Shown here: positions 1,587-38,319 of the stretch, piece after piece | Layout: the number at the start of each line of letters is the position of its first letter | Numbering within the stretch: the stretch's first letter is position 1 | Virus record (IMG/VR): IMGVR_UViG_3300027801_000056 | Coordinates: 1-39,940 of that record | Length of the DNA: 39,940 nucleotides | Direction: 5' to 3' (one strand) | Source of the DNA: a virus | Position numbers and translations under genes: made by a program | Notes under the pieces: model-generated | What the model was told of the DNA's origin: nothing | Databases searched by the model: none | What the model saw: the letters and a program-made list of their open reading frames with translations, nothing else

Positions 1587-1724
1587 ATGAATAAAACAGA
1601 ATTAACAAAATTAGACGGAAAGTATTACGTAGGACACCTCATCGATATGGGTGGGGATGGTTATGTAGATGAAGAAACTGCAGAATTAATCCTATTAGAA
1701 TATAATGCTGGAGTTACTGAATGA
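1587..1724 (+). CDS. 45-residue acidic protein coupled to polymerase gene
   Basis: A 45-codon frame starts 4 nt after the promoter -7 box and ends with a TGA that overlaps the polymerase ATG (ATGA at 1721-1724). The product starts MNKTELTKLDGKYY and is acidic. The overlap implies coupled translation with the family A-like polymerase, so it might be a small partner or only a leader ORF. The family is unknown. Confidence 0.55.
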   Translation: MNKTELTKLDGKYYVGHLIDMGGDGYVDEETAELILLEYNAGVTE

Positions 1725-2977
1725 TTATAGTAGAAACTAATAAAGAGAAAGAACAATTTCTTGAATATTGGAATAAGGAAGAATGTAAGATAATTCCAAT
1801 TTGGGAAGATTTACAAAAGCACCCTATGAATAATAAGGTGTCTTTTCTTTATGTCCGATTTTTAAATTTAGATTTCATACTTCCATTTAATCATAATGAT
1901 TGTGAGAAGTTAGAAATAGACTTATCAACCTCTAAACAAAAGAAATGGGTATGGGATAATAAGGGATTACTACAAGCAGATTTGAATATTCAAAATACAC
2001 ATGATATTCAAACCGATAGATACTTCATTACCAATGAATTATATCAATTACAAACGAAATTAGAACCTCTAACGAACTTTTACACCCGAATGGGGTTAGG
2101 TGATGACTTGGGTAAGACCATCCCTATAATGAAGTGGATAGATACTCTCAAGGGGGTTACTAATGAATTGAACCCTTCAAACGAGAAAAGTTGGGTAAAT
2201 GATACCATGATTCCTATCCTCTCAGATATCGAGAGAAAGGGAGTACGTGTCGATAGGAAAAAATTTATTGATAGGTGGCCACACAACGAAAAACAACTTA
2301 GAGGTGATATTGTTTATACAGAGTACAATCCGTACACAATAACTTCAAGACCTTCCAATCGTCATGGGGGTATTAACTTTGGAGCTTTAAACAAATCCGA
2401 TGGTTCAAGAGATGTATTCATTCCAAGAAAAGGAAAGATGTTTTTACAATTCGATTATGATGCGTATCACGTTAGGATTATTGGTAAGTTGATTAAATAC
2501 AAATTACCCGATACTTCGGTTCACCAATGGTTAGCAGACCAATATGGTTGTGATTATGGGGAATCTAAAGGAAGAACGTTTAGAATCTTATATGGAGGAG
2601 TTACGGATGAGGATAGAAAAATACCGTTCTTCGATAAAGTAGATAAGTTCATTAACAAGATGCAAAAAGAAAGTATTCGTAATGGGTTCATCCAAACACC
2701 CAAAGGAAGAAAAATTCCTATTGGTTGGATTGAAAAGCCAAACGCTCAAAAGTTCTTTAATTATATTTTACAAGCAACTGAAACTGAATTTAATATTGAG
2801 GTAATGGAGAAGTTAAGAAAATTACAACTTCCTCTTCCTATATTATATTCGTATGATGCATTTTTATATGAATTCGATGAAACTGAAATAGAAACTATTA
2901 AATTAATTAAATCCGTTCTCGAAAGTTATGGATTTCCTGTCAAAGCAGAATGGGGTAATCATTATGGAGAAGTTTAA
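1721..2977 (+). CDS. Divergent, compact family A (Pol I-like) DNA polymerase
   Basis: This 418-residue protein carries the ordered landmarks of family A polymerases: IERKGVRVD (170-178), the thumb/palm stretch SRPSNRHGGINFGALN (209-224), motif A FDYDAYHVR with D245, motif B KGRTFRILYGG (283-293), GFIQTPKGRK (322-331) and motif C LYSYDAFLYEF with D379. Both catalytic aspartates are kept. Motif C lacks the usual His-Asp-Glu: the neighbours of D379 are Tyr and Ala. It is far shorter than Pol I (about 930) and the first 160 residues show no clear 3'-5' exonuclease motifs. A full family B replicase lies at 27.8 kb, so this is probably an auxiliary or repair polymerase. Fold assignment is strong; activity is inferred. 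Confidence 0.8.
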   Translation: MIIVETNKEKEQFLEYWNKEECKIIPIWEDLQKHPMNNKVSFLYVRFLNLDFILPFNHNDCEKLEIDLSTSKQKKWVWDNKGLLQADLNIQNTHDIQTDRYFITNELYQLQTKLEPLTNFYTRMGLGDDLGKTIPIMKWIDTLKGVTNELNPSNEKSWVNDTMIPILSDIERKGVRVDRKKFIDRWPHNEKQLRGDIVYTEYNPYTITSRPSNRHGGINFGALNKSDGSRDVFIPRKGKMFLQFDYDAYHVRIIGKLIKYKLPDTSVHQWLADQYGCDYGESKGRTFRILYGGVTDEDRKIPFFDKVDKFINKMQKESIRNGFIQTPKGRKIPIGWIEKPNAQKFFNYILQATETEFNIEVMEKLRKLQLPLPILYSYDAFLYEFDETEIETIKLIKSVLESYGFPVKAEWGNHYGEV

Positions 2978-3690: not shown

Positions 3691-4305
3691 ATGAATTATA
3701 TTAAAATTATTGCAATACTCCTTCTCTTGTCTGGATGTGGTGTTGATGAAATACAAGCACAAAAAGATCTAAGGTCAGAAGTTATAGTAGAAACATCAAT
3801 TTACACCGTATCATATAATGAAATCTTACAACAACCAAATTGGTTAGAATATACATCAACGAATCGAGTTAAGAATGTAGATAGAGGAGGAATGGATTTT
3901 ATAATGTATCCTGGAGTTGTAACATCTGATAAACATGATTATTATAAAAATATCTACGACAAAGGACATCTTGCACCAGCTGCAACATTCTCGGATAGTA
4001 TGGATAACTTAGGAGAAACATTTTATTATTTAAATTGTGCTCTTCAGAACCAAGACTTGAATAGAGGGGAATGGAGATTATTAGAAGCTGAAGAAAGAAA
4101 ATGGGATGATAGTGAAACCTTAACAGTTTCGGTTGATTTGATATTTACTGAAGGTTATATAGTATTGAAAACTGGAGCAGCAATTCCAACTGATATGGTA
4201 AAACATATTTACTTTAATGGTAGAGGTATTTGGAGATGTTTTGAGTTTGTAAACGAAAAACCAACAAAAGGTTGGGAAGATCATGAGGTAATTCATTCTC
4301 ATTAA
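3691..4305 (+). CDS. Lipoprotein DNA/RNA non-specific endonuclease (NucA family)
   Basis: A 204-residue protein with a short lipoprotein signal (hydrophobic IIAILLLLSG then Cys16) followed by a NucA/Serratia-type nuclease domain. The catalytic signature is DKGHLAPAA with D90 and H93, and the metal-binding region reads NCALQNQDLNRGEW (115-128) with the conserved LNRG. The family cleaves DNA and RNA with Mg2+ and is normally secreted. The lipobox predicts export and anchoring in the host envelope, unusual for a phage enzyme. An export role such as destroying incoming DNA is inference. An upstream TATATTAG at 3667 resembles a -7 box, but no -33 box lies 24 nt before it. Confidence 0.85.
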   Translation: MNYIKIIAILLLLSGCGVDEIQAQKDLRSEVIVETSIYTVSYNEILQQPNWLEYTSTNRVKNVDRGGMDFIMYPGVVTSDKHDYYKNIYDKGHLAPAATFSDSMDNLGETFYYLNCALQNQDLNRGEWRLLEAEERKWDDSETLTVSVDLIFTEGYIVLKTGAAIPTDMVKHIYFNGRGIWRCFEFVNEKPTKGWEDHEVIHSH

Positions 4306-4319
4306 TATTTATAGTATAG

Positions 4320-6743
4320 ATGGATTATAAAGAAATTATAGACAGATTAATAAATGAACTTTCTTTTAGAGTTGGGATTCCTGATTTAAAAGATAAAGAA
4401 CAACAGGCAATTATATCAGAAATTCTTTCCGAATGGGGTGAATTTGATGCAAAACAAAGAATCTTTGAATTTCTTACTGAAGCAGAACCTGAAAAATCTA
4501 CTGAAGATGATAAATACACAAATACTGGTGGTAGTGGATATGTAAAAGCACAAGATTACAATAAATGGAAATCAGACCCTAAAGGTTATGAAGGACAGAA
4601 ATTTACAAAAACACCAAGTGGTAAGTATATACCAAAAACCGATGATGGTGGAGATGGTGAAGATAAAGAAGAAAAAGAACTTGGTTCTGTAGTAAAAGCT
4701 GGTTCTGATTATGCAAAAGATCAAGCGGAATTGAAAAAAAGAGTTGCAGATAAGGAAGATGGTGGGGAAAGTGATAAGAATGATAATAAATCTAAACCTA
4801 AATTTCCAAAAAAGGTATTAAATAATAAGTGGGAAGGGAAAACTACTAAAGAAATCATAGATGGTGTTTCGACATCAAATGACCCTAAAGTTATTCCAAC
4901 AAAAGGAAGTGATGATGTTTCTAAGAGAGCCATTGAATCACGACAAATTGCATTTGGTGGCAAGGCAGGAAAGGGTGGAGGTGATACTACGATACAAGAA
5001 GAAATGACTAATATTGGTAGAGAACTTCTATTCTCAAATCCAGATATTACACAAGAAGAATTAGCTAAAAAAATATCAGAAGAGGTAAAACAAAAATTTC
5101 CTGATAGCAACGTTGCTCAAAATGCTTCAAAATTAAAAAAACTATCTAATGCTTCTATAGCTGGATTTGGTTCTGCAAAAAAAATACAAAACAATCCCAA
5201 ATTTAAATATAATAAAAATCAACCAACTGGATATCCAGTAAATACTACTGATGGTATTTTGGTTAGAGATACGTTATCAACTCAACTTGTGGAGGCTGAA
5301 AAATCAGGTAATCAAGAAGACATCGACCATGCTAAAAATGAATTATATGAATTTCAGAAAAATGCAGCTGATAAATCTATTACTGGTAAAGAAGGTGATG
5401 CGGATACGATAGTAATTTACAAAGATACTAATGGTAGGGATAGAGTATGTTATATTTCCAATAAACAATCTCTAAATGACCAACAATCAAGTGGAACTAT
5501 TAATAGTTCTAAAAAGGCACTTACATTTGCATCTACCAGATTGGGATTAACTGATAATGAAAAAGAAGATGTTCTAACAATAGCTGAAGAACAATTTCAA
5601 AAGGCTAATCAATTTGATGAAACATTTGCAAAAGGTGTTAAAACTGCAGCTGAAACTCATAAGGAAAGATTATCAACACCACAAGCTCAAACATCAATGG
5701 CAAAAGCTGCACAGGCCTTGAGTGGTAGAAGTAAAATTGCTAAACCAAATGATAAACTAACACCCATTGAAAAGAAAAAGAAAGAAAGTTATATTACTGA
5801 TTCCTTAAAGAAACCAGAAGTACAGGCAAAACTTTTAGGTTTAGATGGGCCACCAAATGATGATATTACTTCCAAAGAATATAAATCATGGAAGAAGGAT
5901 ACCACCGAGCAGTATAAGATTAATGGTGGAGAATATTCTAATGAACAAATAACTCATGCGGCAACAATGGTTACTGGTACGGGTGGTATTTCGAGAGGTA
6001 ATCATTTAAGAACAAGTGAAAAAATAACTACTGTATCAAGAGATATATATAGAAAAATGAAAAAACTCATCGACGGTGGGATGAGTAAAGAAGAAGCTGT
6101 ATCTAAACTAAAAAAGGATTTTGATAAACCTAATAAAAAAGGTGAAGTGATGTATGGTGGTGTGTTTGATGAAAGTGATTTAATTGAACTATATGATAAT
6201 GATGGTTTAAGAGATATGGAAACTGCTGAAAGACAAAGGGGTGAAGATATCAGAGAAATGCAAACTGAAACAGTATCTAGATTAGTAGAAAAGGATAAAG
6301 AAGAAGGACACACTCCTCCACCAGTAAATGGTAAACGAACACAAGCTTATGTTGCTGGATTCTTTGATAGAGTACATATTACACAAAATGTAGGTGGTAC
6401 TGCTGATGGTAGAAAACTAACTGAAATGGGAGAGTATTCAGTATCACCAAAAGATTACAGAAACGCATTAGCCATAACAACTGATTTTCCAACAGAACAA
6501 GAATGGTTAGAAAAAAATCCGAAGGGTGATTATAATACCGCATTGGAAACTCATTTAATAGGAAATGTTACAGTAGAAGGTGTTGAACAAGAACTACATT
6601 ATGTATCTACTGATGGAAAGAAAAAACATATTGGTACAGATACTCATAGAACTGGTGGAAAGATATCAAAAGTAGCAGGTACATATGGTAAAGATTTCCA
6701 AGAAGAATTAGCTAGGCAATCTGAACAATCTTCCAATAAATAA
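4320..6743 (+). CDS. Large 807-residue charged protein, unknown
   Basis: This is the longest unknown protein in the window. Residues from about 50 to 230 are low complexity, dominated by Lys, Asp, Glu and Gly, and probably disordered. The middle (about 230-560) is helical with segments such as DADTIVIYKDTNGRDRVCY that look like a small beta-rich domain. The C-terminal part (about 650-807) is Gly/Thr-rich and contains GFFDRVHITQNVGGTADGRK. There is no signal peptide, membrane segment, P-loop or known catalytic motif. It stands alone between the nuclease and a small gene. A virion-associated or injected protein is possible, but nothing in the sequence proves it. Confidence 0.7.
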   Translation: MDYKEIIDRLINELSFRVGIPDLKDKEQQAIISEILSEWGEFDAKQRIFEFLTEAEPEKSTEDDKYTNTGGSGYVKAQDYNKWKSDPKGYEGQKFTKTPSGKYIPKTDDGGDGEDKEEKELGSVVKAGSDYAKDQAELKKRVADKEDGGESDKNDNKSKPKFPKKVLNNKWEGKTTKEIIDGVSTSNDPKVIPTKGSDDVSKRAIESRQIAFGGKAGKGGGDTTIQEEMTNIGRELLFSNPDITQEELAKKISEEVKQKFPDSNVAQNASKLKKLSNASIAGFGSAKKIQNNPKFKYNKNQPTGYPVNTTDGILVRDTLSTQLVEAEKSGNQEDIDHAKNELYEFQKNAADKSITGKEGDADTIVIYKDTNGRDRVCYISNKQSLNDQQSSGTINSSKKALTFASTRLGLTDNEKEDVLTIAEEQFQKANQFDETFAKGVKTAAETHKERLSTPQAQTSMAKAAQALSGRSKIAKPNDKLTPIEKKKKESYITDSLKKPEVQAKLLGLDGPPNDDITSKEYKSWKKDTTEQYKINGGEYSNEQITHAATMVTGTGGISRGNHLRTSEKITTVSRDIYRKMKKLIDGGMSKEEAVSKLKKDFDKPNKKGEVMYGGVFDESDLIELYDNDGLRDMETAERQRGEDIREMQTETVSRLVEKDKEEGHTPPPVNGKRTQAYVAGFFDRVHITQNVGGTADGRKLTEMGEYSVSPKDYRNALAITTDFPTEQEWLEKNPKGDYNTALETHLIGNVTVEGVEQELHYVSTDGKKKHIGTDTHRTGGKISKVAGTYGKDFQEELARQSEQSSNK

Positions 6744-6859: not shown

Positions 6860-7261
6860 ATGCAAACACAATTATTGTGTACTTTTACTAATAAAGAAGA
6901 GTTAAAAAACACGTTACAACAAATTCGTGAAACATATCATATAGTATATAACTATATTTACGTTTTACAGAATAAAAGCAACCTAGAAGAGTTATTTATT
7001 ACTTATAATATAGATACTCAGTATAAACCAACGAGTCCTTTACAAAACACTATATTAGTTCATAGAAAGAAGCAATCCAATACTCTTTATACCATCAACG
7101 CTCTAAACGAATTGGTAAAAGAAGAAAACAACGGCGTGTTGGACAAGAAATTCACAATAGATTGGGAAAAATTCAAAAACTCAATTATCGTTACCAATGT
7201 AGAAGGAACAAAGAAAATTTCTACACGAATCTTCGAGGTAATCGAATTTAACAAAAAATAA
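6860..7261 (+). CDS. Small protein, unknown
   Basis: A 133-residue protein with mixed alpha/beta character, starting after a 116-nt gap that shows no clear promoter or terminator. The N-terminus MQTQLLCTFTNKEELKNTL reads like a beta strand followed by a helix. The middle has VYNYIYVLQNK. I do not recognise the family. A promoter for the next gene begins 11 nt after its stop. Confidence 0.6.
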   Translation: MQTQLLCTFTNKEELKNTLQQIRETYHIVYNYIYVLQNKSNLEELFITYNIDTQYKPTSPLQNTILVHRKKQSNTLYTINALNELVKEENNGVLDKKFTIDWEKFKNSIIVTNVEGTKKISTRIFEVIEFNKK

Positions 7262-11233: not shown

Positions 11234-12034
11234 ATGGCATTAGACATTAACGCAATCAGAGGTAGACTGAACAAACTACAAAACACTCAAAGGAAATCTG
11301 ACAATCTATGGAAACCAACACCTGGTAAACATACTGTTAGAATCGCTCCTTACCAATTCGACAAGGATAATCCTTTCATCGAATTGTATTTTCACTATAA
11401 TATTAATAACAAAACTTATTTATCACCACAATCGTATGGTAGACCAGACCCTATTGTAGAGTTTGCGGATAAACTAAAACGAATGGGAGATAAGGAAGAT
11501 TGGAAAGCAGCTAAGGCTATGGAGCCGAAGTTGAGAACTTTCGTACCTGTTATCGTTAGAGGTGAAGAAGGTGAAGGAATCCGTTTTTGGGGATTCGGTA
11601 AAACAGTATATCAAGAAATTCTTGGTTACATTGCTGACCCAGATTATGGTGATATCACTGATCCAACAAGTGGTAGAGATTTAACAATTGAATATAAATC
11701 AGCTGAAGAAGCTGGCACGAGTTATCCAACTACTACCATTCGAGTTAAACCAAGTACATCTCCAATTACGGCAGATGAATCAAAGGTTGAAGGATTATTA
11801 AATAATCAAACTGAAATTACTGACTTATATTCAGAGTTATCTTACGATGAATTGAAATCAGTACTAGAAGGATGGTTAAATCCAAGTGGAGAGGGTGAAA
11901 CATCAGTAGCACAACAAACATTGACTACTAAACCAACTCAATCTACACAATCAACCCAACCTAAAGTAGAAATTAACGATCCTCAGAAAACTGATGATGT
12001 TGCCTCTGCTTTTGATGACTTATTTAACAAATAA
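11234..12034 (+). CDS. Single-stranded DNA-binding protein, T4 gp32-like
   Basis: A 266-residue protein resembling T4 gp32. It has a basic N-terminus (NAIRGRLNKLQNTQRKSDNLW), an OB-fold core rich in aromatics (YFHYNINNKTYLSPQSYG, then RFWGFGKTVYQEI) and an acidic C-terminal tail after a Thr/Gln-rich linker (DDVASAFDDLFNK), the usual protein-interaction tail. It coats single-stranded DNA during replication and recombination and works with UvsX, encoded 11 nt downstream. It contains no cysteine, so the zinc site of T4 gp32 is absent. Expression probably depends on the structured leader. Confidence 0.85.
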   Translation: MALDINAIRGRLNKLQNTQRKSDNLWKPTPGKHTVRIAPYQFDKDNPFIELYFHYNINNKTYLSPQSYGRPDPIVEFADKLKRMGDKEDWKAAKAMEPKLRTFVPVIVRGEEGEGIRFWGFGKTVYQEILGYIADPDYGDITDPTSGRDLTIEYKSAEEAGTSYPTTTIRVKPSTSPITADESKVEGLLNNQTEITDLYSELSYDELKSVLEGWLNPSGEGETSVAQQTLTTKPTQSTQSTQPKVEINDPQKTDDVASAFDDLFNK

Positions 12035-12045
12035 AAACCAACTTA

Positions 12046-13170
12046 ATGGCGAAAAAGAAAAAAGAATTGGATCTTGCAGATATCCTTGCGGATGAACTGA
12101 ACAAACAATCCAAAGACCAAAAAGTAGCATTTTTCCTTAATGAAGATGAAGCTCCTACAAATGTAGATGGGTGGATATCCACAGGATGTGCTATGTTAGA
12201 TGTTGCAATTTCTAATCGTCCTTATGGTGGATTACCAGTTGGTAGAATAACTGAAATTACAGGATTAGAACAATCAGGAAAATCATTAGTATCGGCCCAC
12301 CTCCTTGCGGAAACACAAAAGCAAGGTGGTGTTGCTGTTCTTATTGATACAGAAACCGCAGTAAGTAGAGATTTTTTAGAAGCAATCGGTGTAGACGTTT
12401 CTAAATTACTTTATGTATCAGCAGATTCGGTTGAACAAATCTTTGATTTCACAGAAACTATCATTGAAAAGGTAAGAGAAACATCAAAGGATAAATTAGT
12501 TACTATCGTAGTAGATTCCGTAGCAGCAGCCTCCACAACGAATGAGTTGGCTTCTGATTATAAGAAAGATGGATATGCTACCGATAAGGCTATTATTATC
12601 TCAAAAGCAATGAGAAAGATTACCAATATGATTGGTAGACAGAAAATCTCATTGGTGTTCACTAACCAACTTAGACAAAAGATGAACGCTATGTTCGGAG
12701 ATCCTTGGACTACAAGTGGTGGTAAAGCTCTTGCTTTTCACTCTTCTGTAAGATTAAGGTTAAAGAATATGGGGCAAATCAAAATGAAGGTAAACGCCAA
12801 AGATAAGGTGGTAGGAATGAAAGTTCGTTGTCAAGTAGTAAAAAACAGAATGGGCCCACCACTAAGGGCGGCTGATTTTGAAATTTATTTTGACAGAGGA
12901 ATAGATAACTACGGTTCGTGGTTAGGAGTAATGAAAGAAAATAATATGTTGAAACAAGCGGGTGCTTGGTATACATACGTTGATACCGAAACAGGTGAAG
13001 AAATCAAATTTCAATCCAAAGATTTCATTGTAATGATGGGAGAAAAGGAAGAATTGAGAGAACAAATTTATAAAAAGATATGTGAAGAAACAATCTTACA
13101 GTATAAAGGTGATACTCTTGATATCGAGAATATGGAAGTAGATACACATGGTGCCGGTGTTGGCGATTAA
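12046..13170 (+). CDS. uvsX: UvsX-like RecA family recombinase
   Basis: A 374-residue RecA-fold protein. Walker A is GLEQSGKS (73-80), a catalytic-Glu strand is ETAVSRDF (about 105-112), and Walker B is TIVVDSVAA. FTNQLRQKMNAMFG and TTSGGKALAFHSSVRLRL match the L2/core region of UvsX and RecA. It catalyses strand exchange on SSB-coated DNA and starts recombination-dependent replication. It follows the SSB gene closely and precedes the RNase H, as expected for a T4-like recombination unit. Length is similar to T4 UvsX (about 390). Confidence 0.93.
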   Translation: MAKKKKELDLADILADELNKQSKDQKVAFFLNEDEAPTNVDGWISTGCAMLDVAISNRPYGGLPVGRITEITGLEQSGKSLVSAHLLAETQKQGGVAVLIDTETAVSRDFLEAIGVDVSKLLYVSADSVEQIFDFTETIIEKVRETSKDKLVTIVVDSVAAASTTNELASDYKKDGYATDKAIIISKAMRKITNMIGRQKISLVFTNQLRQKMNAMFGDPWTTSGGKALAFHSSVRLRLKNMGQIKMKVNAKDKVVGMKVRCQVVKNRMGPPLRAADFEIYFDRGIDNYGSWLGVMKENNMLKQAGAWYTYVDTETGEEIKFQSKDFIVMMGEKEELREQIYKKICEETILQYKGDTLDIENMEVDTHGAGVGD

Positions 13171-13405: not shown

Positions 13406-14461
13406 ATGAAAGAACTATACAAAAACATTTTAGATTCGGTTGAAACTGATAGAACCCAAAATGTCAATAGACACAAGAATTCTCGTGTATTAATTATTGA
13501 CGGGTTAAACACATTCATCAGATGTTGGTCATCAATACCAACTATGAATGAAGATGGAGACCACGTAGGTGGTGCGACAGGTGTATTAAAATCAATAGGT
13601 TACGCAATCAGACAAACTCAACCGACTCGTGTTGTTGTAGTGTTCGATGGTAAGGGTGGTTCAACATCACGTAAGAAAAAGTTTAGTGGGTACAAAGCTC
13701 AAAGAGATTCTAACAAACTTAGAGTAAATCGTGCTTATAAAGGCATGATGAACGATGAGGATGAAAGAGAATCTATGAAAAGACAATACGTTTGGTTAAA
13801 CGAAATGTTGGATGGACTACCTTTAACAACTATGATTTACGATGGAGTTGAAGCAGATGATATAATGGCTTATATCTCTACCACACTTCTCAAGGAAGAT
13901 GAACAAGCGGTAATTATGTCAACAGATAAGGATTTCCTTCAACTGATTGATGATACAACTATCGTTTGGTCACCTACCAAAAAGAAAATGTATAATACAA
14001 AGATGGTAAAAGAAGAATTTGGTATTGAATCAAAGAACCTTTTATTATATAGAGTATTAGATGGAGATAAATCAGATAATATCCCTGGAGTATATGGATG
14101 TGGAATCAAAACAGTAGTTAAGAGATTTCCAGAAATTACTCAAGAAGAAAAATTATCAGTAGATGATTTATTAAAACTTTGTGAAACTAAGCTTGATGAG
14201 ACAAAGGGTAAGATAAAGATATATAAAGATATTCTTGGTTCTAAAAACCAAATTTTATTAAATAGAGAACTAATGCAACTCGATGATGTTGATATTAGTG
14301 GTACTATAAAAATGAATACTTTAGATAGATTTAATGAACCTGTTCCCGCTCTAAACAAATTGGATTTTATGAAAATCCTTCTTAAATACAAAGTTATAGG
14401 AAACTTCGGTGATATCAATGATTGGTTAAAAATCACATTCGGTAACATCATTACAGATTAA
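13406..14461 (+). CDS. rnh: RNase H / 5'-3' exonuclease, FEN family (T4 Rnh-like)
   Basis: A 351-residue FEN-superfamily nuclease. The acidic metal-binding residues are visible in order: LIIDGLNTFIRC (D32), VVVFDGKGGSTSRKKKF, DGVEADDIMAYI, STDKDFLQL and VLDGDKSDNIPGVYGCGIKT (helix-hairpin-helix). In T4 this enzyme removes RNA primers and flap DNA from lagging strands, with SSB and clamp. It starts immediately after the stop of the small gene before it. T4 Rnh is about 305 residues, so there is a modest C-terminal extension. Confidence 0.9.
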   Translation: MKELYKNILDSVETDRTQNVNRHKNSRVLIIDGLNTFIRCWSSIPTMNEDGDHVGGATGVLKSIGYAIRQTQPTRVVVVFDGKGGSTSRKKKFSGYKAQRDSNKLRVNRAYKGMMNDEDERESMKRQYVWLNEMLDGLPLTTMIYDGVEADDIMAYISTTLLKEDEQAVIMSTDKDFLQLIDDTTIVWSPTKKKMYNTKMVKEEFGIESKNLLLYRVLDGDKSDNIPGVYGCGIKTVVKRFPEITQEEKLSVDDLLKLCETKLDETKGKIKIYKDILGSKNQILLNRELMQLDDVDISGTIKMNTLDRFNEPVPALNKLDFMKILLKYKVIGNFGDINDWLKITFGNIITD

Positions 14462-14597: not shown

Positions 14598-15956
14598 ATG
14601 CAAGAAAACGATACTTTATCAAAATACGGACAATCCTTTCAATCAAAGGTTATTTCCGCTCTTCTTGTTGATGGTAAGTTCTTAGATACTATTTCTGAAA
14701 TAACCACTGCTAAATTCTTTGAGAATGATGCAAATAAGTGGATTATAGCGGAAATACTTGAATACCATTCAGGTTACAGACAACCCCCAACATTAGATGT
14801 ATTTAAATCACAATTATCCAAAGTAGATAATCCAATTTTAAAGAAAACAGTTATAGACCAACTACGACACGTTTTCACACAAGTTGGTAATGTTGATTTA
14901 GAATACATTAAGAATGAATTTACAGATTTCTGTAAAAACCAAAACTTAAAAGGAGTAATACTCCAATCAGTTGATTTACTTCAGGCAGGTCAATATGATA
15001 AAATAAAAACTTTAGTAGACAACGCAATGAAAGTTGGTACTGAAACTAATTTAGGACATGATTATAAGATAGATTTCGATGAAAGAGCAAATGAACTAAA
15101 ACGTTCTACTGTTCCAACCAATTGGAAACCAATCAATGATTTAATGGATGGAGGATTAGGACCAGGTGAACTTGGAGTAGTAGTTGCACCTTCTGGTGTA
15201 GGTAAAACTTGGATATTAACCGCAATTGGTGCAGATGCAGTTAAAAGAGGATTAAGTGTGGTACATTATAGTATGGAATTATCAGAACACTATGTAGGTG
15301 CTAGATATGATACTGTATTTACTCAAATTCCATCAAATAAGTTAAAAGAAAGTAGAGAAGATGTTAAACATAAAATTAATGGTTTACCTGGTAGATTGTT
15401 AATTAAGTATTTTCCACCAAAAGGAGTTTCTGTTAAGAAATTAAACCAACATATTGAGAAAATGATAATCTCAGATAACAGACCAGATTTAGTCATTGTA
15501 GATTATGCTGATTTACTATTATCGGATTCAAATAAACATGATTCAACTTATGCTGAACAAGGTGGTGTTTACATTGACCTTCGTGGTATGAGTGGAGAGT
15601 TAGAAATTCCAATATGGACAGCATCACAAACCAATCGTTCAGCAATTGATTCGGAAGTTATTGAAGCAGATAAGATTGCAGATTCTTATGCTAAAGTAAT
15701 GAACGCTGATTTTATTATGAGTTGGAGTAGAAAAGCAAAAGATAAATTGAATGATACTGCTCGTGCACATATTATGAAAAACAGATTTGGACCAGATGGT
15801 ATAACGTTCCCATGTAAGATGAACACAAATACAGGATACATTGAAGTATACGATGGTAATTCACCAGATGGAGTAATTGCACAGAAAGAAGCGGCAAGTG
15901 GACAATTGGAAACTAAGAAACTTCTACATAAAAAATATGTGGAAAATATGGGCTAA
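14598..15956 (+). CDS. Replicative DNA helicase, DnaB/T4 gp41-like
   Basis: A 452-residue RecA-fold hexameric helicase. A helical N-terminal domain (1-150) is followed by the ATPase core with Walker A APSGVGKT (197-204), HYSMELSEHYVGARYD (motif H1a/catalytic Glu region), Walker B LVIVDYADLLL, and IWTASQTNRSA (H3). HIMKNRFGPDGITFPCKMN matches the C-terminal arginine-finger strand of DnaB-type enzymes. It would unwind DNA 5'-3' at the fork. No primase (gp61) or loader (gp59) gene is visible in this window. Its stop overlaps the start of the methyltransferase gene. Confidence 0.9.
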   Translation: MQENDTLSKYGQSFQSKVISALLVDGKFLDTISEITTAKFFENDANKWIIAEILEYHSGYRQPPTLDVFKSQLSKVDNPILKKTVIDQLRHVFTQVGNVDLEYIKNEFTDFCKNQNLKGVILQSVDLLQAGQYDKIKTLVDNAMKVGTETNLGHDYKIDFDERANELKRSTVPTNWKPINDLMDGGLGPGELGVVVAPSGVGKTWILTAIGADAVKRGLSVVHYSMELSEHYVGARYDTVFTQIPSNKLKESREDVKHKINGLPGRLLIKYFPPKGVSVKKLNQHIEKMIISDNRPDLVIVDYADLLLSDSNKHDSTYAEQGGVYIDLRGMSGELEIPIWTASQTNRSAIDSEVIEADKIADSYAKVMNADFIMSWSRKAKDKLNDTARAHIMKNRFGPDGITFPCKMNTNTGYIEVYDGNSPDGVIAQKEAASGQLETKKLLHKKYVENMG

Positions 15957-17011
15957 TGATAAATTACGAATCATACGGAAAGTTCATTGAACATAATGAG
16001 TTAGATTTAGAATACCATAGGGTAACCAGAGATGTGTTTGAAATAGAAGATGTAGATTCTGCATTAGAAATTATTTTTCAATACCATCGTAAAAACGGAT
16101 TTCCTCATTATGATATTCCTACTCATGGGAGATTACAACAATTTAAATCTTTAAAACGATTTGATGAACAAACTTTATTTAAGGATGGTAAAATAGACCA
16201 AACAATGCATGGATTATCTCTTGCATGGACTTATTTTCCTCATTGGGTAGATGTGATTTGTGGTTCGAGTAAATTATCACCAATTGAATATTGGAATAAT
16301 GATGATAAGTTAAAAGAAATTATTAGAAAAACTTGGAATTGGCAAATCAAGCATGGTAATGGTTCTTTTACTTTAAATCGATTAAGACAGAATTTAAAAA
16401 TATATGGTGGTAATCAATCTGTAAGTAATTTTAGACCATCAGCAGCAAAATACATCTATAACACCTATGGTAATCAAGGAGTTGTATGGGATATGAGTTG
16501 TGGGTGGGGTGGAAGGTTGATAGGATTCCTCACAAGTGATTGTAAACGATACATTGGTACTGAGCCCTCAACTAAAACATTCAATGGATTAGAGAGGTTA
16601 AATGAAGATATAAATTCTATTAGTAAACAAGTGGAATTTCATCAATTGGGTTCAGAGGTATTTAGACCAGAAAAGGAAACCGTTGATTTATGTTTTACAT
16701 CACCTCCTTATTTTGATACTGAGAAGTATTCGGATGAAGAAACTCAATCTTATATAAAATATCCTTCTGAGGCAACTTGGATAGATGGTTTTCTAAAAGA
16801 TACAATTTCAAACTGTTATTATGGATTGAAACATGGTGGCAAAATGATGTTAAACATTACAAATACCAAAAAATATAAAACAATAGAAAATGAAACTATA
16901 CGTATTTCTTCCGAATTAGGATTCAAACACATCGATACCATATACTTGATTTTATCATCGGTATCTGGAAATGGGGAAAAGTTAGAACCCATCTTTGTAT
17001 TTGAAAAATAG
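15956..17011 (+). CDS. SAM-dependent SPPY methyltransferase, paralogue 1
   Basis: A 351-residue protein with a SAM-binding motif I, WDMSCGWGGRLIGF (178-191), followed by CFTSPPYFDTEKYS (247-259) containing the catalytic SPPY motif of amino (N4-cytosine or N6-adenine) DNA methyltransferases. The C-terminal strands KMMLNITNTKKY and IFVFEK complete the fold. The N-terminal 150 residues are a conserved family extension with FRPSAAKYIYNTY. It shares the order and signature YSDEETQS with two other genes in this window. It probably methylates a base in DNA; the target site is unknown. It overlaps the helicase stop by 1 nt. No restriction endonuclease partner is seen. Confidence 0.8.
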   Translation: MINYESYGKFIEHNELDLEYHRVTRDVFEIEDVDSALEIIFQYHRKNGFPHYDIPTHGRLQQFKSLKRFDEQTLFKDGKIDQTMHGLSLAWTYFPHWVDVICGSSKLSPIEYWNNDDKLKEIIRKTWNWQIKHGNGSFTLNRLRQNLKIYGGNQSVSNFRPSAAKYIYNTYGNQGVVWDMSCGWGGRLIGFLTSDCKRYIGTEPSTKTFNGLERLNEDINSISKQVEFHQLGSEVFRPEKETVDLCFTSPPYFDTEKYSDEETQSYIKYPSEATWIDGFLKDTISNCYYGLKHGGKMMLNITNTKKYKTIENETIRISSELGFKHIDTIYLILSSVSGNGEKLEPIFVFEK

Positions 17012-19530: not shown

Positions 19531-21312
19531 ATGGCTAAAAATTACGGTGAAGAATTGGATTGGGAACTTGATGTAGATTTTCCATCATGGGCAAATACAG
19601 AGATATATGTTAAAACTATATCTAAAGGATATTTACTTTCTGGTGAAAAACCCAAAGATGCATATTGGAGAGTTGCAACAAAAGTAGCACAAAGATTGGG
19701 TAAACCACAATTGGCAACTAAATTCTTTGATTACATTTGGAAAGGTTGGTTAAACCTTGCAACACCTGTTCTTTCAAATACAGGTACTGATAGAGGATTA
19801 CCTATATCATGTTTTGGTATAGATGTAGCTGATTCAATCTTTGATATTGGTTCTAAAAATTTAGAATTAATGTTACTCGCTAAACATGGTGGTGGAGTTG
19901 GTGTAGGTATTAATCAAATTAGACCTGCAGGTTCTCCTATCACAGGCAATGGAACATCGGATGGTGTAATACCATTCGCTAAGATATACGATTCTACGAT
20001 ACTCGCAACCAATCAAGGTTCGGTACGAAGAGGAGCGGCATCGGTAAACTTAAACATAGAACACAAAGATTTCGAAGATTGGTTAGAAATCAGAGAACCA
20101 AAAGGAGATGTAAATAGACAATCATTAAATCTACACCAATGTGCAGTTGTAGGTGATAAGTTTATGAGAAAACTACAAGATGGTAATGAAGCTGCTCGTA
20201 GAAAATGGGGAAAATTACTTCAGAAACGAAAAGCAACAGGAGAACCATATATTATGTATAAGGGGAATGTTAACAAACAGAACCCAGATGCATACAAGAA
20301 AAACGGATTAAAAGTACATATGACTAATATATGTTCTGAGATTACATTACATACTGATGAGAATCATTCATTTGTGTGTTGTTTATCTTCATTAAACTTA
20401 TCTAAATACGATGAGTGGAAAGATACTGATTTAGTATATACTGCAACTTGGTTCTTAGATGGAGTACTTTCAGAGTTTATCCAAAAAGCCAAGAATATGA
20501 AAGGATTTGAACATTCTGTTGCATCTGCTGAAAAAGGTAGAGCATTAGGCCTGGGTGTATTGGGATGGCACACTTATTTACAACAAAGAGGTATTCCATT
20601 TGAAGGAATGGAGGCACAATTCGAAACTCGTAAGATTTTCTCTCAACTAAAAATTGAATCAGAAAGAGCATCAAGAGATTTAGCTGAAGAATATGGTGAA
20701 CCACTATGGTGTAGAGAATCTGGAATGAGAAATACTCACTTAAGAGCAATTGCACCAACAGTATCTAACTCAAAATTAAGTGGTAATGTTTCTCCTGGTA
20801 TTGAACCATGGGCGGCAAACGTATTCACCGAACAAACATCAAAAGGTACTTTCATTAGAAGAAATAACGAATTAGAAAAGGTATTAAGAAAAGCAGGTAT
20901 CAATAATAAAGATACATGGGATAAAATACTAAATGATTTGGGTTCAATACAAGATTTACCAGAATTAGATGATTGGTGTTACTTAAATGGAAAAATGATA
21001 CTCCAATCAGATATAACAAATGGAGATAAAGAAAAAATATATCCAGTTAAAGATGTATTCAGAACATTTAAAGAAATCAACCAAATGGATTTGGTTAAAC
21101 AAGCAGGTGTACGACAACAATATATTGACCAAGGAGTTTCATTAAACTTGGCATTTCCTTCGGTGGTTGAACCAAAGTGGATTAACCAAGTAACGATGGA
21201 GGCTTGGAAACAGGGTATTAAAACACTATACTATATGAGAACAGAATCAGTTCTTAGAGGAGATATAGCACAAAGAGCAACTGATCCCGATTGTGTTGCC
21301 TGTGACGGTTAA
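19531..21312 (+). CDS. nrdA: Ribonucleotide reductase, class I large subunit
   Basis: A 593-residue catalytic subunit. Active-site residues are visible: C94 in PISCFG, N266, C268 and E270 in MTNICSEI, the redox partner cysteine in FVCCLSSLNL (283/284), the radical-relay pair TLYYMRTES near the end and the C-terminal shuttle cysteines CVAC (588-591). It reduces ribonucleoside diphosphates. It is much shorter than E. coli NrdA (761) and lacks the N-terminal ATP cone, so the dATP feedback off-switch is probably missing, as is common in phages. It starts 1 nt after the fusion gene and is followed by thioredoxin, its likely reductant. Confidence 0.93.
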   Translation: MAKNYGEELDWELDVDFPSWANTEIYVKTISKGYLLSGEKPKDAYWRVATKVAQRLGKPQLATKFFDYIWKGWLNLATPVLSNTGTDRGLPISCFGIDVADSIFDIGSKNLELMLLAKHGGGVGVGINQIRPAGSPITGNGTSDGVIPFAKIYDSTILATNQGSVRRGAASVNLNIEHKDFEDWLEIREPKGDVNRQSLNLHQCAVVGDKFMRKLQDGNEAARRKWGKLLQKRKATGEPYIMYKGNVNKQNPDAYKKNGLKVHMTNICSEITLHTDENHSFVCCLSSLNLSKYDEWKDTDLVYTATWFLDGVLSEFIQKAKNMKGFEHSVASAEKGRALGLGVLGWHTYLQQRGIPFEGMEAQFETRKIFSQLKIESERASRDLAEEYGEPLWCRESGMRNTHLRAIAPTVSNSKLSGNVSPGIEPWAANVFTEQTSKGTFIRRNNELEKVLRKAGINNKDTWDKILNDLGSIQDLPELDDWCYLNGKMILQSDITNGDKEKIYPVKDVFRTFKEINQMDLVKQAGVRQQYIDQGVSLNLAFPSVVEPKWINQVTMEAWKQGIKTLYYMRTESVLRGDIAQRATDPDCVACDG

Positions 21313-26144: not shown

Positions 26145-26562
26145 GTATAAGTTTAAAAATAGAAAATTTCCAAAGGAATTTCAATCCGTATGTGATTATA
26201 TAAAAAGTACCAAAGGAGTTGTTGTCAAATTAGGACATATAACATCTTTTATGGGACACTTTAATCGCACTATATACATTCATCACAACTATGATTTAAC
26301 AAATAATGGATTATATGCCTTACTTCATGAAGTAGGACATTCATTACAACCACCTACTTCAGTTGGTTCAAACTCATATAAGAATATCGATGATGATTTA
26401 AACAAACGAGAGTTTGAAATGGGTAGGTTTGTAAATGAATTAGATGCATGGAAAATAGGATTAAATGTTGCCAAAGAATTAAATCTTAAAATAAATAACG
26501 ATGAATGGAATAATCAAAAAAATGAGGCTCTTCTTACTTACTGGCCTAATAACTCTAAGTAG
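26137..26562 (+). CDS. Zincin-like metallopeptidase
   Basis: A 141-residue protein with a zinc-peptidase HEXXH motif in LYALLHEVGHSLQPP (H64, E65, H68), preceded by a beta-strand stretch RTIYIHHNYDLTNNG, the arrangement of ImmA/IrrE-like and related small zincins. A third ligand is likely the Glu in NELDAWKIGLNV (about residue 100). No signal peptide is seen, so it would act in the cytoplasm, perhaps on a host regulator; that is inference. It overlaps the following lipoprotein gene by about 41 nt. Confidence 0.75.
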   Translation: MGKYKFKNRKFPKEFQSVCDYIKSTKGVVVKLGHITSFMGHFNRTIYIHHNYDLTNNGLYALLHEVGHSLQPPTSVGSNSYKNIDDDLNKREFEMGRFVNELDAWKIGLNVAKELNLKINNDEWNNQKNEALLTYWPNNSK

Positions 26563-27788: not shown

Positions 27789-30308
27789 GTTATTTATCAA
27801 AATATCTATTATCAACGAGAAAAGAACTTAATACATCTTTGGGATGATCAGAGAGGTTATAGTGCATTTCCATATACACGATATGCATATGAACATGCAA
27901 AACGAGGTGAGTATAAATCTATATATGGTGACAACTTAACTAAGATTTACAAATTCAAAGGAGATGATCCTACTTTGTTTGAATCTGATGTACCTGAAAC
28001 CACACGAGCATTAGTAGATATGTATTCCGATACGGATAATGTATCTACTGGTCATATCATTCTTACTTATGATATTGAGTGTGAAATGACAAGTGGTATA
28101 CCAGACCCATTAGAAGCTACAAACGAATTAACATCAATTGCACTTCATGATTCTGCTACCAACCAATATTGGGTATTGGTGATGGATAAAGAAGGAAAGA
28201 TGTTAGAAAAAACAACAGATAAGGCAATTGTACTTCCTTTCAGAACCGAAGAAGAGATGTTAATAAAATATCTTGAATTGTATGAAATGATTAATCCTTC
28301 AATCGTTACAGGATGGAATATTGATTTCTTTGATACACCTATGTTATACAATCGTATTAAACGATTGATGGGAGAAAAACAAGCAAATAGATTATCTCCA
28401 ATAGGACAATGTTTCTGGTCACCTTATCGTAAGAGATATTTCATGGCCGGTGTATCTTATTTGGATTACATCACATTATATAAGAATTACAATTTTGGTG
28501 AACTTGCAAATTATCGATTAGATACAGTTGCTCAGAAAGAATTGGGCAGAGGTAAAATAGAATACCAAGGAAACTTGGATGAGTTATTTAAAGAAGATAT
28601 TGAAAAGTTCATTGAGTATAACTTGGTGGATGTTGAATTGGTTGTGGGATTTGAAGAAAAACTACAATTCATTGATTTATGTAGAGGTATCTGTCATGCT
28701 GGACACGTTCCGTATGAAGATTTTGTATATTCATCAAAGTATCTTGAGGGTGCAATGTTAACCTATCTTCGTAGAAAAGGATTAGTTGCATGTAACAAAC
28801 CTGCTGATAGGAGAGAACGAATGGAAGCTCTTAAAGCAAACAAACAAGAAAAATTCATTGGGGCTTATGTAAAGGCACCAATTGTTGGTAAATATGAATG
28901 GATTTATGATTTAGATTTAACATCTCTATATCCTTCAATCATTATGAGTATCAACATATCACCCGAAACCAAAATCGGTAAGATTAAAGATTGGGATGCA
29001 AATGAATTTATAAAAGGTAGTGTTGATACATATCAAATTGATGATGATACAATTACAAAAGAAAATTTAAAAGAATATTTAGAAAAATCTAAATTCGCAA
29101 TCGCATCAAATGGAGTATTATACAGAACAGACACCGTTGGGTGCATTCCTGGTATACTTGATTTGTGGTTTAAGAAGAGGGTTGAGTATAAAGATGAAAT
29201 GGTAAAATATGGAAAAGCAGGAAACAAAGAAAAATATGCCTTCTATCACAAACGTCAGTTGGTTCAGAAGATTTTACTTAACTCTTTATATGGGGTGCTT
29301 GGTCTTCCTGCCTTTAGGTTCTATGATGTTGATAATGCTACCGCTGTTACCACGACAGGACAGACAGTTATTAAATCAACTGCTGATATGGCTAACATCA
29401 AGTACAACAAGGAATTGGGTACTCCTGATTTGGATTCTAATATATACATCGATACTGATTCTGTATTCTTCTCCGCAGTTCCTTTAATGGATAAACGACT
29501 TCCTAATTGGAAAAATGAAGAACAAGATGTAATTGCTGGTTATGTAAATGATATTGCAGAAGAAATGCAAGATTACCTCAATGATTTCTATGATATCCTA
29601 TCTAAAAAGGTATTCAATATAGATAAAGATAAACACAGATTAGAAATTAAAATGGAAAATGTTGCAAAAGCAGGATTGTGGATTGCAAAGAAAAGATATG
29701 CACAATGGATTATATCAGATAATGGTGTACCATGTGATAAGTTGGATGTAAAAGGATTGGATGTTAAGCGTTCATCGTTCCCAAAGGCATTTCAAGAATG
29801 TATGGGAAAAGTTTTGATTGATATACTGAAGGGTGTTTCTGAGGAAGAACTTACAGAATATGTATTGGATTTCAAAAAGAATATGGTAAATAGACCTAAC
29901 TCTGAAATCGCTAAGAATACGGCAGTAAAGAATCTTAAGAAATATATGCCGAAAGGTAAACGAGTACCATTTACTACAATGAAAGGAACTCCTGCTCACG
30001 TAAAAGCAGCAATTGCATATAATGACCTTATAAAACATTTTGATGTACCGTTCAAATACGGACCGATGGTAAATGGTGATAAAGTAAAGTGGGTATATCT
30101 TAAAACAAATCCATTAGGATTAAATGGTTTAGCATTTACTGGTTGGAAAGACCCACCAGAAATAGAAGAGTTTATAAACACCTACATAGACCACAACAAA
30201 ATCTTTGAAAGAGAGTTACGATTCAAGTTACAAGATTTCTATGATGCAATTGGATGGGGAGAAATGATTAGTGAACAAAAGACAGCAGAAAAGTTTTTTA
30301 CCTTTTAA
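27789..30308 (+). CDS. Replicative DNA polymerase, family B (T4 gp43-like)
   Basis: A complete family B polymerase of about 839 residues. Exonuclease motifs are DIECEM (Exo I), GWNIDFFDTPMLYNR (Exo II) and YNLVDVELV (Exo III). Polymerase motifs are DLDLTSLYPSIIMS (A), KILLNSLYGVLG (B) and YIDTDSVFF (C). The first ATG/GTG/TTG in frame is TTG 27975, but the frame is open back to a stop at 27771-27773. The 62 codons from 27789 encode a typical gp43 N-terminus (IYQNIYYQREKNLIHLWDD). The start must therefore be unusual: GTT 27789 or ATT 27792. It ends with an apparent clamp-interaction-like FFTF. It is the main replicase, working with gp45 and gp44/62. Confidence 0.9.
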   Translation, partial: VIYQNIYYQREKNLIHLWDDQRGYSAFPYTRYAYEHAKRGEYKSIYGDNLTKIYKFKGDDPTLFESDVPETTRALVDMYSDTDNVSTGHIILTYDIECEMTSGIPDPLEATNELTSIALHDSATNQYWVLVMDKEGKMLEKTTDKAIVLPFRTEEEMLIKYLELYEMINPSIVTGWNIDFFDTPMLYNRIKRLMGEKQANRLSPIGQCFWSPYRKRYFMAGVSYLDYITLYKNYNFGELANYRLDTVAQKELGRGKIEYQGNLDELFKEDIEKFIEYNLVDVELVVGFEEKLQFIDLCRGICHAGHVPYEDFVYSSKYLEGAMLTYLRRKGLVACNKPADRRERMEALKANKQEKFIGAYVKAPIVGKYEWIYDLDLTSLYPSIIMSINISPETKIGKIKDWDANEFIKGSVDTYQIDDDTITKENLKEYLEKSKFAIASNGVLYRTDTVGCIPGILDLWFKKRVEYKDEMVKYGKAGNKEKYAFYHKRQLVQKILLNSLYGVLGLPAFRFYDVDNATAVTTTGQTVIKSTADMANIKYNKELGTPDLDSNIYIDTDSVFFSAVPLMDKRLPNWKNEEQDVIAGYVNDIAEEMQDYLNDFYDILSKKVFNIDKDKHRLEIKMENVAKAGLWIAKKRYAQWIISDNGVPCDKLDVKGLDVKRSSFPKAFQECMGKVLIDILKGVSEEELTEYVLDFKKNMVNRPNSEIAKNTAVKNLKKYMPKGKRVPFTTMKGTPAHVKAAIAYNDLIKHFDVPFKYGPMVNGDKVKWVYLKTNPLGLNGLAFTGWKDPPEIEEFINTYIDHNKIFERELRFKLQDFYDAIGWGEMISEQKTAEKFFTF

Positions 30309-32500: not shown

Positions 32501-33214
32501 ATGGAAAAACAATCATTAAATAGATTTGTATCTAAATACAATCTAGCAGGTTTAGTAGAATCTGTAAAATGGGAATCAAAAGATGGTTCTCTAACTACCT
32601 CATTCATATCAGATGATAAATCTGTATTGGGTTCGGTCTCAATGAAAGAATTCGAAGGTAATAACGCCGAGTTTGGTGTATATGATACCTCTAAACTTTC
32701 AAGAATGTTATCAGTTCTTGGTAATGAAGTAGACTTCTCGATATTAGATATTGATGGTAAATCTGTTTCTTTGAAATTCAAAGATGCCTCAACATCGGTA
32801 AATTATATGTTAGCTGACTTATCAGTTATTCCTAATGTTCCGGATTTGAAACAATTACCAGAATTCAACGTAGAAATTAAATTGGATACTAATTTTATCT
32901 CAACATTTATTAGAGCAAAGGGTGCTTTAGTAGATGAGAATAATTTTACATTCATTTGTAAAAATAACAAAGGAAGTATTATATTAGGACATTCTAATAT
33001 TAACACAAACAGAATTAACATTGATGTTGATTGTACGTGTGATGGAGATGTGAAACCAATCTCATTCTCAGCAACGTATCTAAAAGAAATCCTTGTTGCA
33101 AACAAAGAAGCAACGGATGCAACTTTGAAGATTTCATCTCAAGGACTTGCACATATCCACTTCAATATTGACAATTACGAAAGCAATTATTATCTTGTTG
33201 AAATAGCTAATTAA
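32501..33214 (+). CDS. Sliding clamp, T4 gp45-like
   Basis: A 237-residue protein with the PCNA-fold pattern of T4 gp45 (228 residues): two similar halves of alternating strands such as SLTTSFISDDKSVLGSVSMK and VSLKFKDASTSVNYMLADLS, and a final VEIAN. It encircles DNA and holds the polymerase. Assignment also rests on genetic context: the clamp loader genes gp44 (35734) and gp62 (37870) lie downstream. It ends with TAATG overlapping the next methyltransferase. Confidence 0.8.
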   Translation: MEKQSLNRFVSKYNLAGLVESVKWESKDGSLTTSFISDDKSVLGSVSMKEFEGNNAEFGVYDTSKLSRMLSVLGNEVDFSILDIDGKSVSLKFKDASTSVNYMLADLSVIPNVPDLKQLPEFNVEIKLDTNFISTFIRAKGALVDENNFTFICKNNKGSIILGHSNINTNRINIDVDCTCDGDVKPISFSATYLKEILVANKEATDATLKISSQGLAHIHFNIDNYESNYYLVEIAN

Positions 33215-35733: not shown

Positions 35734-36684
35734 ATGGCATTTTTCGAAGAAAAAGAAACAAAAGAGACAAACAATACTCTCTGGACCGAAAAATATCGTC
35801 CAAAAAATCTTCAAGAGTATGTAGGTAATGAGCATCTTAAACAAAAGGTTGCAGATTACTTAGAGAATGCGGATATTCCACATTTACTATTCTTTGGTAA
35901 GGCCGGTACTGGTAAAACAACACTTGCTAGACTTATTGTAAACTCAATAGATTGTGACCATATTATTATTAACGCATCTGATGAAAATAATGTAGATACG
36001 GTTCGTAATAAAGTAAAAGGATTTGCTTCAACAGTAGGATTTAGAAATTCAAAGATTGTTATCCTTGATGAGTTTGATTACATGACACCAAATGCACAGG
36101 CAATCCTTCGTAATTTGATGGAAACCTTTTCAAAACATTGTAGATTTATTCTAACGTGTAATTATGTTGAGAAAGTTATTACACCAATTCGAAGTAGAAC
36201 ACAAGAATTTCAGATTGTACCACCAACCAAAAAGGATGTTGCAGTACAGATATCACAAATACTTGGTAAAGAAAATATTAAGTTTGAACTGAAAGATTTA
36301 GTTCCTATTATTGATGCATCATATCCAGATATTAGAAAAATTATTAATACTTGTCAACTAAATTCCTCAAAAGGAATCTTAAAGGTAGATGTTAGTAATA
36401 TAATGAATTCTGATGTTAAGATAAAGATTATTGATTTACTGAAAGGTAACGATGATAAGAGAAATAAGTACATGAAGATTAGACAAGCAGTAGCTGATTC
36501 ACGTATTCAAGACTTCTCTGAACTATATGGGTATCTTTATGAGAAGATTGATGAGTACGCTGGTGATAATACATCAAACGTAATATTAACTCTATCAGAA
36601 GGACAGTATAAGGATAGTATGTCGGTGGATAAAGAAATCCCGTTTATGGCTACTATTATACAAATTGTAGGTATGATTGGGTAA
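35734..36684 (+). CDS. Clamp loader large subunit, T4 gp44-like
   Basis: A 316-residue AAA+ ATPase. The N-terminal LWTEKYRPKNLQEYVGNE is the typical box II of clamp loaders, Walker A is GKAGTGKT (55-62), Walker B/DExx is VILDEFDYMT, sensor 1 is LTCNY, and the arginine-finger motif is IRSRTQEF. T4 gp44 is 319 residues. Four copies with one gp62 load the clamp (gp45) on DNA. gp62 is encoded downstream at 37870, after several small genes. The frame starts without spacing after the small gene. Confidence 0.93.
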   Translation: MAFFEEKETKETNNTLWTEKYRPKNLQEYVGNEHLKQKVADYLENADIPHLLFFGKAGTGKTTLARLIVNSIDCDHIIINASDENNVDTVRNKVKGFASTVGFRNSKIVILDEFDYMTPNAQAILRNLMETFSKHCRFILTCNYVEKVITPIRSRTQEFQIVPPTKKDVAVQISQILGKENIKFELKDLVPIIDASYPDIRKIINTCQLNSSKGILKVDVSNIMNSDVKIKIIDLLKGNDDKRNKYMKIRQAVADSRIQDFSELYGYLYEKIDEYAGDNTSNVILTLSEGQYKDSMSVDKEIPFMATIIQIVGMIG

Positions 36685-37869: not shown

Positions 37870-38319
37870 ATGGCACAATCACTTTTTGACCACATAAAGG
37901 CAATTACACAATTTCAAGACCCAAAGTATTGGGATACTCTTGATGATGATTCAAAAAAAACATGGAGTAATTACATGATACATAGATTTCTTTCTATGAA
38001 TCCAGAGTGGATAGAAGTTTTATCTGAAATACAACCATATACCCAAACACTTGAACCAAAATATCTTTATTTATTATTAATAGGATTGTTACCTAAAGGA
38101 AAATATTATTTAAAATACGTAAAGGGAAAGAAAACCGATAAATACGAAAGTTTTTTAATTGATTTAATTAGACAAGATTTTCAATGTTCATCAAGACAAG
38201 CAGAAGAATATACAGAGATATTATATGCAAGTAAGGAAGGTAGAGAAAGCATATTGTATATCTGTACTAAATATGGTATTGAGAAAAAACAAATTACTAA
38301 ATTAAAGTTGAAACTATAA
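37870..38319 (+). CDS. Clamp loader small subunit, T4 gp62-like
   Basis: A 149-residue helical protein whose layout resembles T4 gp62 (187 residues): MAQSLFDHIKAITQFQDPKYWDTL and then KTWSNYMIHRFLSMNPEWIEVL, SEIQPYTQTLEPKYLYLLL and LPKGKYYLKYVKGKK. gp62 completes the gp44/62 clamp loader. It begins directly after the zinc-ribbon gene, and the radical SAM gene starts at its stop. The match rests on the overall pattern plus context, not on a catalytic motif. Confidence 0.75.
   Translation: MAQSLFDHIKAITQFQDPKYWDTLDDDSKKTWSNYMIHRFLSMNPEWIEVLSEIQPYTQTLEPKYLYLLLIGLLPKGKYYLKYVKGKKTDKYESFLIDLIRQDFQCSSRQAEEYTEILYASKEGRESILYICTKYGIEKKQITKLKLKL

Follow-up and report, generated by a model that had tools for sequence, protein, structure and literature searches.

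A thumbless family A DNA polymerase of the divPolA1 group at the head of a conserved block of phage replication genes

The window, that is, the whole stretch of 39,940 nucleotides of the IMG/VR record IMGVR_UViG_3300027801_000056 that was analysed, encodes a compact family A DNA polymerase in addition to a T4-like replisome. Because the corresponding group has already been named divPolA1 by Yutin et al. 2024 (Virol J 21:200, PMC11348598), the gene is a new member of that group. In the following we present evidence that it has a palm and fingers with both catalytic aspartates, distinctive replacements at otherwise canonical Pol I positions and essentially no thumb, and that it lies beside a recurrent set of replication genes. 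On these grounds we tentatively propose, with a probability that falls somewhat short of even, that divPolA1 is a distributive accessory polymerase, which carries out short-patch synthesis together with a flap nuclease (FEN) in the manner of a DNA polymerase I split into two polypeptides.

Identification of the polymerase and its relatives

The polymerase gene and the features recognized in and next to it are:

1587..1724, plus strand: 45-aa ORF, overlapping the polymerase start by ATGA, present in close relatives only
1721..2977, plus strand: divPolA1 polymerase ORF with an ATG start, 418 aa; compact, thumbless, probably exonuclease-inactive family A enzyme
1721..2170, plus strand: N-terminal domain (approximately residues 1-150), of a degenerate 3'-5' exonuclease type according to AlphaFold2 secondary structure and PMC11348598
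2453..2476, plus strand: motif A, DYDAYHVR, residues 245-252; D245 corresponds to D705 and H250 lies at the E710 position
2567..2596, plus strand: motif B, KGRTFRILYG, residues 283-292; K283, F287 and Y291 correspond to K758, F762 and Y766
2846..2863, plus strand: motif C, YSYDAF, residues 376-381; Y378, D379 and A380 correspond to H881, D882 and E883

The divPolA1 group was described from 14 phages, including Flavobacterium phage immuto, as sitting alongside a regular DNA polymerase of family A, B or C, with a truncated thumb, replaced exonuclease aspartates, a preserved palm and replication genes downstream; a role in replication was inferred for it, and no mechanism was given (PMC11348598). 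A text search of the literature for the name divPolA1 recovered only that paper and its preprint, and a literature search found no report of activity for any member. The window polymerase likewise is additional to a regular DNA polymerase, keeps the palm residues, has a truncated thumb and is followed by replication genes. It is homologous to immuto35A_1 (MW353176; tblastn 3e-33, residues 34-414), with which it also aligns in the family alignment, and is 27% identical to the immuto divPolA1. Other near full-length relatives are found in a 484-kb uncultured phage (1e-43) and in Microcystis phage Mel-JY01 (2e-34), and weaker matches are to the C-termini of mycobacteriophage Pol I proteins. As a single sequence it scores below the gathering cut-off of the Pfam DNA_pol_A family (E=2.6e-4, 20.5 bits; cut-off 34.3), and it matches PHROG 17 (DNA polymerase) at 6e-14. 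A search of IMG/VR with the window polymerase recovered 9 close relatives, and one with the family alignment at least 558 confirmed related contig stretches, most of these relatives being contig fragments. The gene also occurs on seven contigs binned into bacterial MAGs, which are probably phage since most of them have the same gene neighborhood.

The ratio dN/dS of the polymerase gene against its close relatives is 0.17-0.22, which indicates purifying selection and, together with the invariance of the motif residues, rules out a chance ORF or a pseudogene. The 45-residue gene was originally described as coupled to the polymerase, whose start it overlaps by ATGA; however, tblastn matches to it are limited to 7 close relatives, and it therefore lies outside the core block described below.

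Predicted fold and active site

The AlphaFold2 model of the polymerase (mean pLDDT 93.7, pTM 0.90) contains a palm and fingers, and Foldseek searches with it recovered Pol theta (1.7e-18) and the Klenow fragment (1kfd, E=4.5e-18, TMq 0.72). The right-hand fold on which the original assignment depended is therefore recovered in its palm and fingers, with the thumb lacking. A phmmer search of PDB with the single window protein found nothing relevant, and a family profile was needed for a match: the 61-sequence family alignment recovers Klenow at 3.3e-9. In a one-sequence search against E. coli PolA the family profile (E=8.7e-14) aligns in two parts, 523-558 and from 629 on, both of which use the same stretch of the profile, and the PolA thumb (~558 to ~645, roughly 90 residues) has no counterpart in this alignment. 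The equivalent region of the model contains only one short helix (179-185). Judged by alignment and model together, the thumb of the window polymerase is essentially absent.

In the model the N-terminal third resembles an exonuclease-type domain that has degenerated. The initial annotation had noted no obvious exonuclease, which holds insofar as no working one is recognizable, but the domain is not simply missing. No conserved exonuclease aspartate motif is evident in the N-terminal part, where the alignment to PolA is unreliable, and MAFFT --add alignment with Klenow misplaces this third of the protein, which was left out of the residue mapping. Because of this unreliability, the domain was identified from the model and from the structures compared in the published work.

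Alignment of the family profile with E. coli PolA pairs the two catalytic aspartates D245 and D379 with D705 and D882, in agreement with the motifs A, B and C first reported for the 418-residue protein, and also shows retention of K758 (K283), F762 (F287), Y766 (Y291), R668 (R210), N845 (N347) and Q849 (Q351). The positions that have changed are E710 (H250), R754 (Y279), H881 (Y378) and E883 (A380). In 90 of 90 full-length sequences D245, H250, K283, F287, Y291, R210, Q351, Y378 and D379 are invariant, and for the aspartate pair and the equivalents of K758, F762 and Y766 this invariance extends down to 27% identity. Accordingly, the steric-gate position of E710 is a histidine and the position of H881 a tyrosine in all 90 relatives, whereas the E883 position is divided between Ser (77) and Ala (13), and that of R754 between Tyr (72), Val (13), Ile (4) and Gln (1). 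The altered motif C reported earlier, Y-D-A in the window protein, is hence one form of a family-wide Y-D-[SA] motif with an invariant Y378 and D379. Thus, while the palm and fingers fold and the core catalytic residues are common to divPolA1 and the Klenow fragment or bacterial Pol I, the window protein has 418 residues as against about 605, has neither a thumb nor a recognizable working proofreading domain, and shows none of the canonical Pol I features of thumb, E710 steric gate and HDE motif C, with E710 replaced by His, H881 by Tyr and E883 by Ala or Ser, and R754 lost. The changes at E710 and H881 are specific to the family and suggest altered selection of the sugar or the base. The catalytic residues conserved in 90/90 sequences, combined with a dN/dS of ~0.2, point to a working enzyme.

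The conserved block of replication genes

Downstream of the polymerase the window encodes the following proteins:

6860..7261, plus strand: p133, conserved block protein, a relative of immuto35A_2; confident model with no known fold match
11234..12034, plus strand: single-strand DNA binding protein (SSB); phrog_1192 E=1.1e-20
12046..13170, plus strand: UvsX-like recombinase; phrog_97 E=2.6e-74
13406..14461, plus strand: FEN, flap/5'-3' nuclease of the Pol I N-terminal type; phrog_107, Taq Pol I 6e-19
14598..15956, plus strand: DnaB/gp41-like replicative helicase; phrog_19 E=1.5e-75

These form a block in the order divPolA1 - p133 - SSB - UvsX - FEN - DnaB, with the polymerase at its head. The same order was observed by tblastn in the loci long enough to show it, including those of immuto and Mel-JY01, although UvsX of immuto and a few others is too divergent for the window query and is represented by a gene in that place annotated as a recombinase. 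The genomic context looks fixed across many environmental phages, while the genes inserted between the polymerase and p133 vary among loci. In the window the inserted genes include those for a DNA/RNA non-specific endonuclease (3691-4305; PF01223 E=1.9e-19), whose N-terminus resembles that of a lipoprotein (LLLSGC) and which recurs in the vicinity of divPolA1 in 30 of 99 loci, and for an 807-aa protein (4320-6743) without a significant Pfam or PHROGs match, which lies between the polymerase and p133 in ~21 of 99 loci.

A scan seeded with p133, which shares some contigs with the polymerase-seeded scan, placed divPolA1 upstream of p133 in every locus that had 8 kb of flank or more (29/29), and in 11/13 of those with 4-8 kb; the two loci without it may be due to truncation, because the observed distances reach 7.1 kb. 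In several deep lineages p133 starts within about 60 bases of the end of divPolA1, as in immuto (1326 to 1346), Mel-JY01 (21188 to 21239), L112 and L115. The model of p133 is confident (pLDDT 93.8), but a Foldseek search with it gave no credible match (best E=0.1), and the window protein has no Pfam or PHROG match worth reporting and no PDB sequence match; its immuto relative shows only a weak match to phrog_5996.

FEN is closest to the 5'-nuclease region of Taq Pol I (6e-19) and to another Pol I chain (2e-16), with T4 RNase H recovered only at 5e-5. The two synthetic-repair halves of Pol I, namely the 5' nuclease and the polymerase, thus share one block as separate proteins. Distance-matrix correlations with the polymerase are 0.79 for FEN, 0.79 for DnaB, 0.72 for p133, 0.71 for SSB and 0.52 for UvsX; since all block genes correlate with the polymerase, co-evolution measured in this way is not decisive. 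Of the six proteins in the block, the polymerase evolves fastest (median distance 1.34). The conserved block, the loss of the thumb, the degenerate N-terminal domain and the histidine at the E710 position are all absent from the initial annotation.

The regular replicase and the primase

The rest of the replisome is encoded further downstream:

27975..30308, plus strand: family B gp43-type replicative DNA polymerase with an exonuclease domain; phrog_262 E=2.9e-182
32501..33214, plus strand: probable sliding clamp (processivity factor); phrog_947 E=2e-4, a weak match
35734..36684, plus strand: gp44-like clamp loader; phrog_168 E=1.2e-77
37870..38319, plus strand: gp62-like clamp loader small subunit; phrog_225 E=2.3e-16

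The family B replicase named in the initial annotation is accordingly present, and its description of a second, compact family A polymerase beside a T4-like replisome stands, with gp43, the probable clamp, the clamp loader, UvsX, SSB and DnaB all on the same contig. A family B replicase also occurs in 8/8 searched IMG/VR contigs of more than 70 kb, in Mel-JY01 and in LR756508. In immuto no family B match was obtained, and a 777-aa full-length family A enzyme is encoded instead; hhalign of the divPolA1 family with this one replicase gave a signal too weak to be of use. As these genomes carry another replicase, divPolA1 itself is unlikely to be the replicase. For the 484-kb phage (LR756508.1), the matches to its gp43-like polymerase fall into four segments spanning 7.7 kb (259594-267281; L015-L018), a pattern suggestive of inserted elements or of a split gene.

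Several other genes lie among the replication genes of the window. GroEL (30803-32422; phrog_5725 E=2.5e-174) and a GroES-like protein (35093-35395) are encoded close to the family B polymerase, and GroEL/GroES near the regular DNA polymerase of divPolA1 phages were noted by Yutin et al. (PMC11348598). An FG-GAP repeat protein (26501-27706) with a lipoprotein-like N-terminus (TLSSCEK) is encoded immediately before the family B polymerase. Three proteins with a TSPPY motif (15956-17011, 23419-24663 and 33214-34845), all matching phrog_12517 and DNA methyltransferase PHROGs, probably form a set of paralogous methyltransferases scattered through the replication region.

A DnaG-type primase is encoded in all three long phage records with divPolA1. 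Replacement of a missing primase by divPolA1 was considered and rejected: the long relatives without a primase match (G010/G011, G013 and G017) are fragments lacking other genes of the region, and W01-W03 carry a primase. In those fragments no portal gp20 was found, and gp23 was found in G017 only; G010 and G011 share no more than a partial overlap at their ends and do not join into a circle.

Possible functions of divPolA1

The roles suggested in the initial annotation, namely gap filling, repair or lesion bypass, are reasonable candidates. Under the split Pol I proposal, divPolA1 would be distributive and make short stretches of DNA for want of a thumb and of proofreading, with p133 and/or SSB as partners that might hold it on the template. 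Together with FEN it would act in trans, the pair potentially combining removal of primers or flaps with gap filling on the lagging strand or on recombination intermediates, while bulk synthesis would be left to gp43 or its substitute. This interpretation is favored by the conserved catalytic residues and the low dN/dS, the missing thumb, the coexistence of a separate replicase, the linkage in the block and the affinity of FEN to Pol I 5'-nuclease domains. Against it, an ordinary Pol I engaged in gap filling does not usually have His in place of E710, Ser/Ala in place of E883 and a lost R754; FEN and the polymerase are linked only as neighbors, with SSB, UvsX and DnaB in the same block; and the distance-matrix correlations do not single out FEN. 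Moreover, T4 is not known to need such an enzyme for the maturation of its Okazaki fragments.

Alternatively, divPolA1 might be a recombination or lesion-tolerant polymerase, acting in the extension of UvsX D-loops or in synthesis across damaged or modified bases of the template by means of its altered nucleotide-binding pocket (H250, Y378, S/A380). The presence of UvsX and SSB in the same block, the apparent lack of a working proofreading domain and the location of the invariant changes in active-site motifs A and C are consistent with such a role, but among the block genes it is UvsX whose distances correlate least with those of the polymerase, no lesion-repair gene was seen fixed in the block, and active-site changes alone are no demonstration of bypass; we hence regard it as unlikely. 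Somewhat less likely still is that divPolA1 and p133 form a two-subunit primer-making enzyme by analogy to CCPol-MP of SCCmec elements (Bebel et al. 2020, PMC7581432). CCPol is likewise of the A-family; it has no exonuclease domains, the last helix of its thumb is shortened, and its gene adjoins those of a small protein, MP, with which alone it primes, and of a helicase (PMC7581432). The close succession of divPolA1 and p133 in several deep lineages and the confident p133 model without a known fold would suit p133 as a candidate counterpart of MP, to which it is likened by gene position. However, divPolA1 keeps an exonuclease-like domain, a DnaG-type primase is encoded in the three long phage records that carry it, and of the E710 and F762 equivalents, both of which are kept in CCPol, divPolA1 keeps F762 (as F287) but has His in place of E710.

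A more far-reaching version, which we consider a long shot, is that p133 serves as a template clamp replacing the thumb in a two-subunit enzyme, which would represent a class of phage polymerases with its own nucleotide selection through a histidine steric gate. Such an enzyme could initiate or reinitiate synthesis, either de novo or using ribonucleotides, and would form the constant part of a replisome whose replicase is exchanged. Least probable of all appears a mainly structural or regulatory role as a non-processive, replisome-binding remnant in which catalysis is no longer needed: the loss of the thumb and exonuclease, the substitution of several neighbors of the catalytic site and the rapid evolution of the polymerase might be accommodated by it, but it is at odds with the aspartate pair and the K758, F762 and Y766 equivalents remaining invariant across 90 divergent sequences.

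For the favored split Pol I interpretation there is a viral precedent in ASFV PolX, reported to be a thumbless gap-filling repair polymerase, though of family X and with an unrelated fold (PMC5330486). A further parallel is divPolA2 of the barbaviruses, also a second thumbless A-family enzyme beside PolB, which by its published description differs in its N-terminal domain and in a variable gene neighborhood (PMC11348598).

Implications

Relative to the original description of the group (PMC11348598), the extension to at least 558 stretches, the His/Tyr signature of the active site, the p133 neighbor, the Pol I-type FEN and the linkage counts are new. The replicase of these phages has been swapped between families, yet the thumbless polymerase stays with SSB, the recombinase, the 5' nuclease and the helicase; an accessory enzyme that stays the same under a changing replicase would show which step of replication cannot be swapped. 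As an A-family enzyme that naturally lacks a thumb and has a new residue at the steric gate, divPolA1 offers a direct test of the roles of the thumb and of E710, and the gene block with p133 provides concrete candidate partners for a family that was named in 2024.
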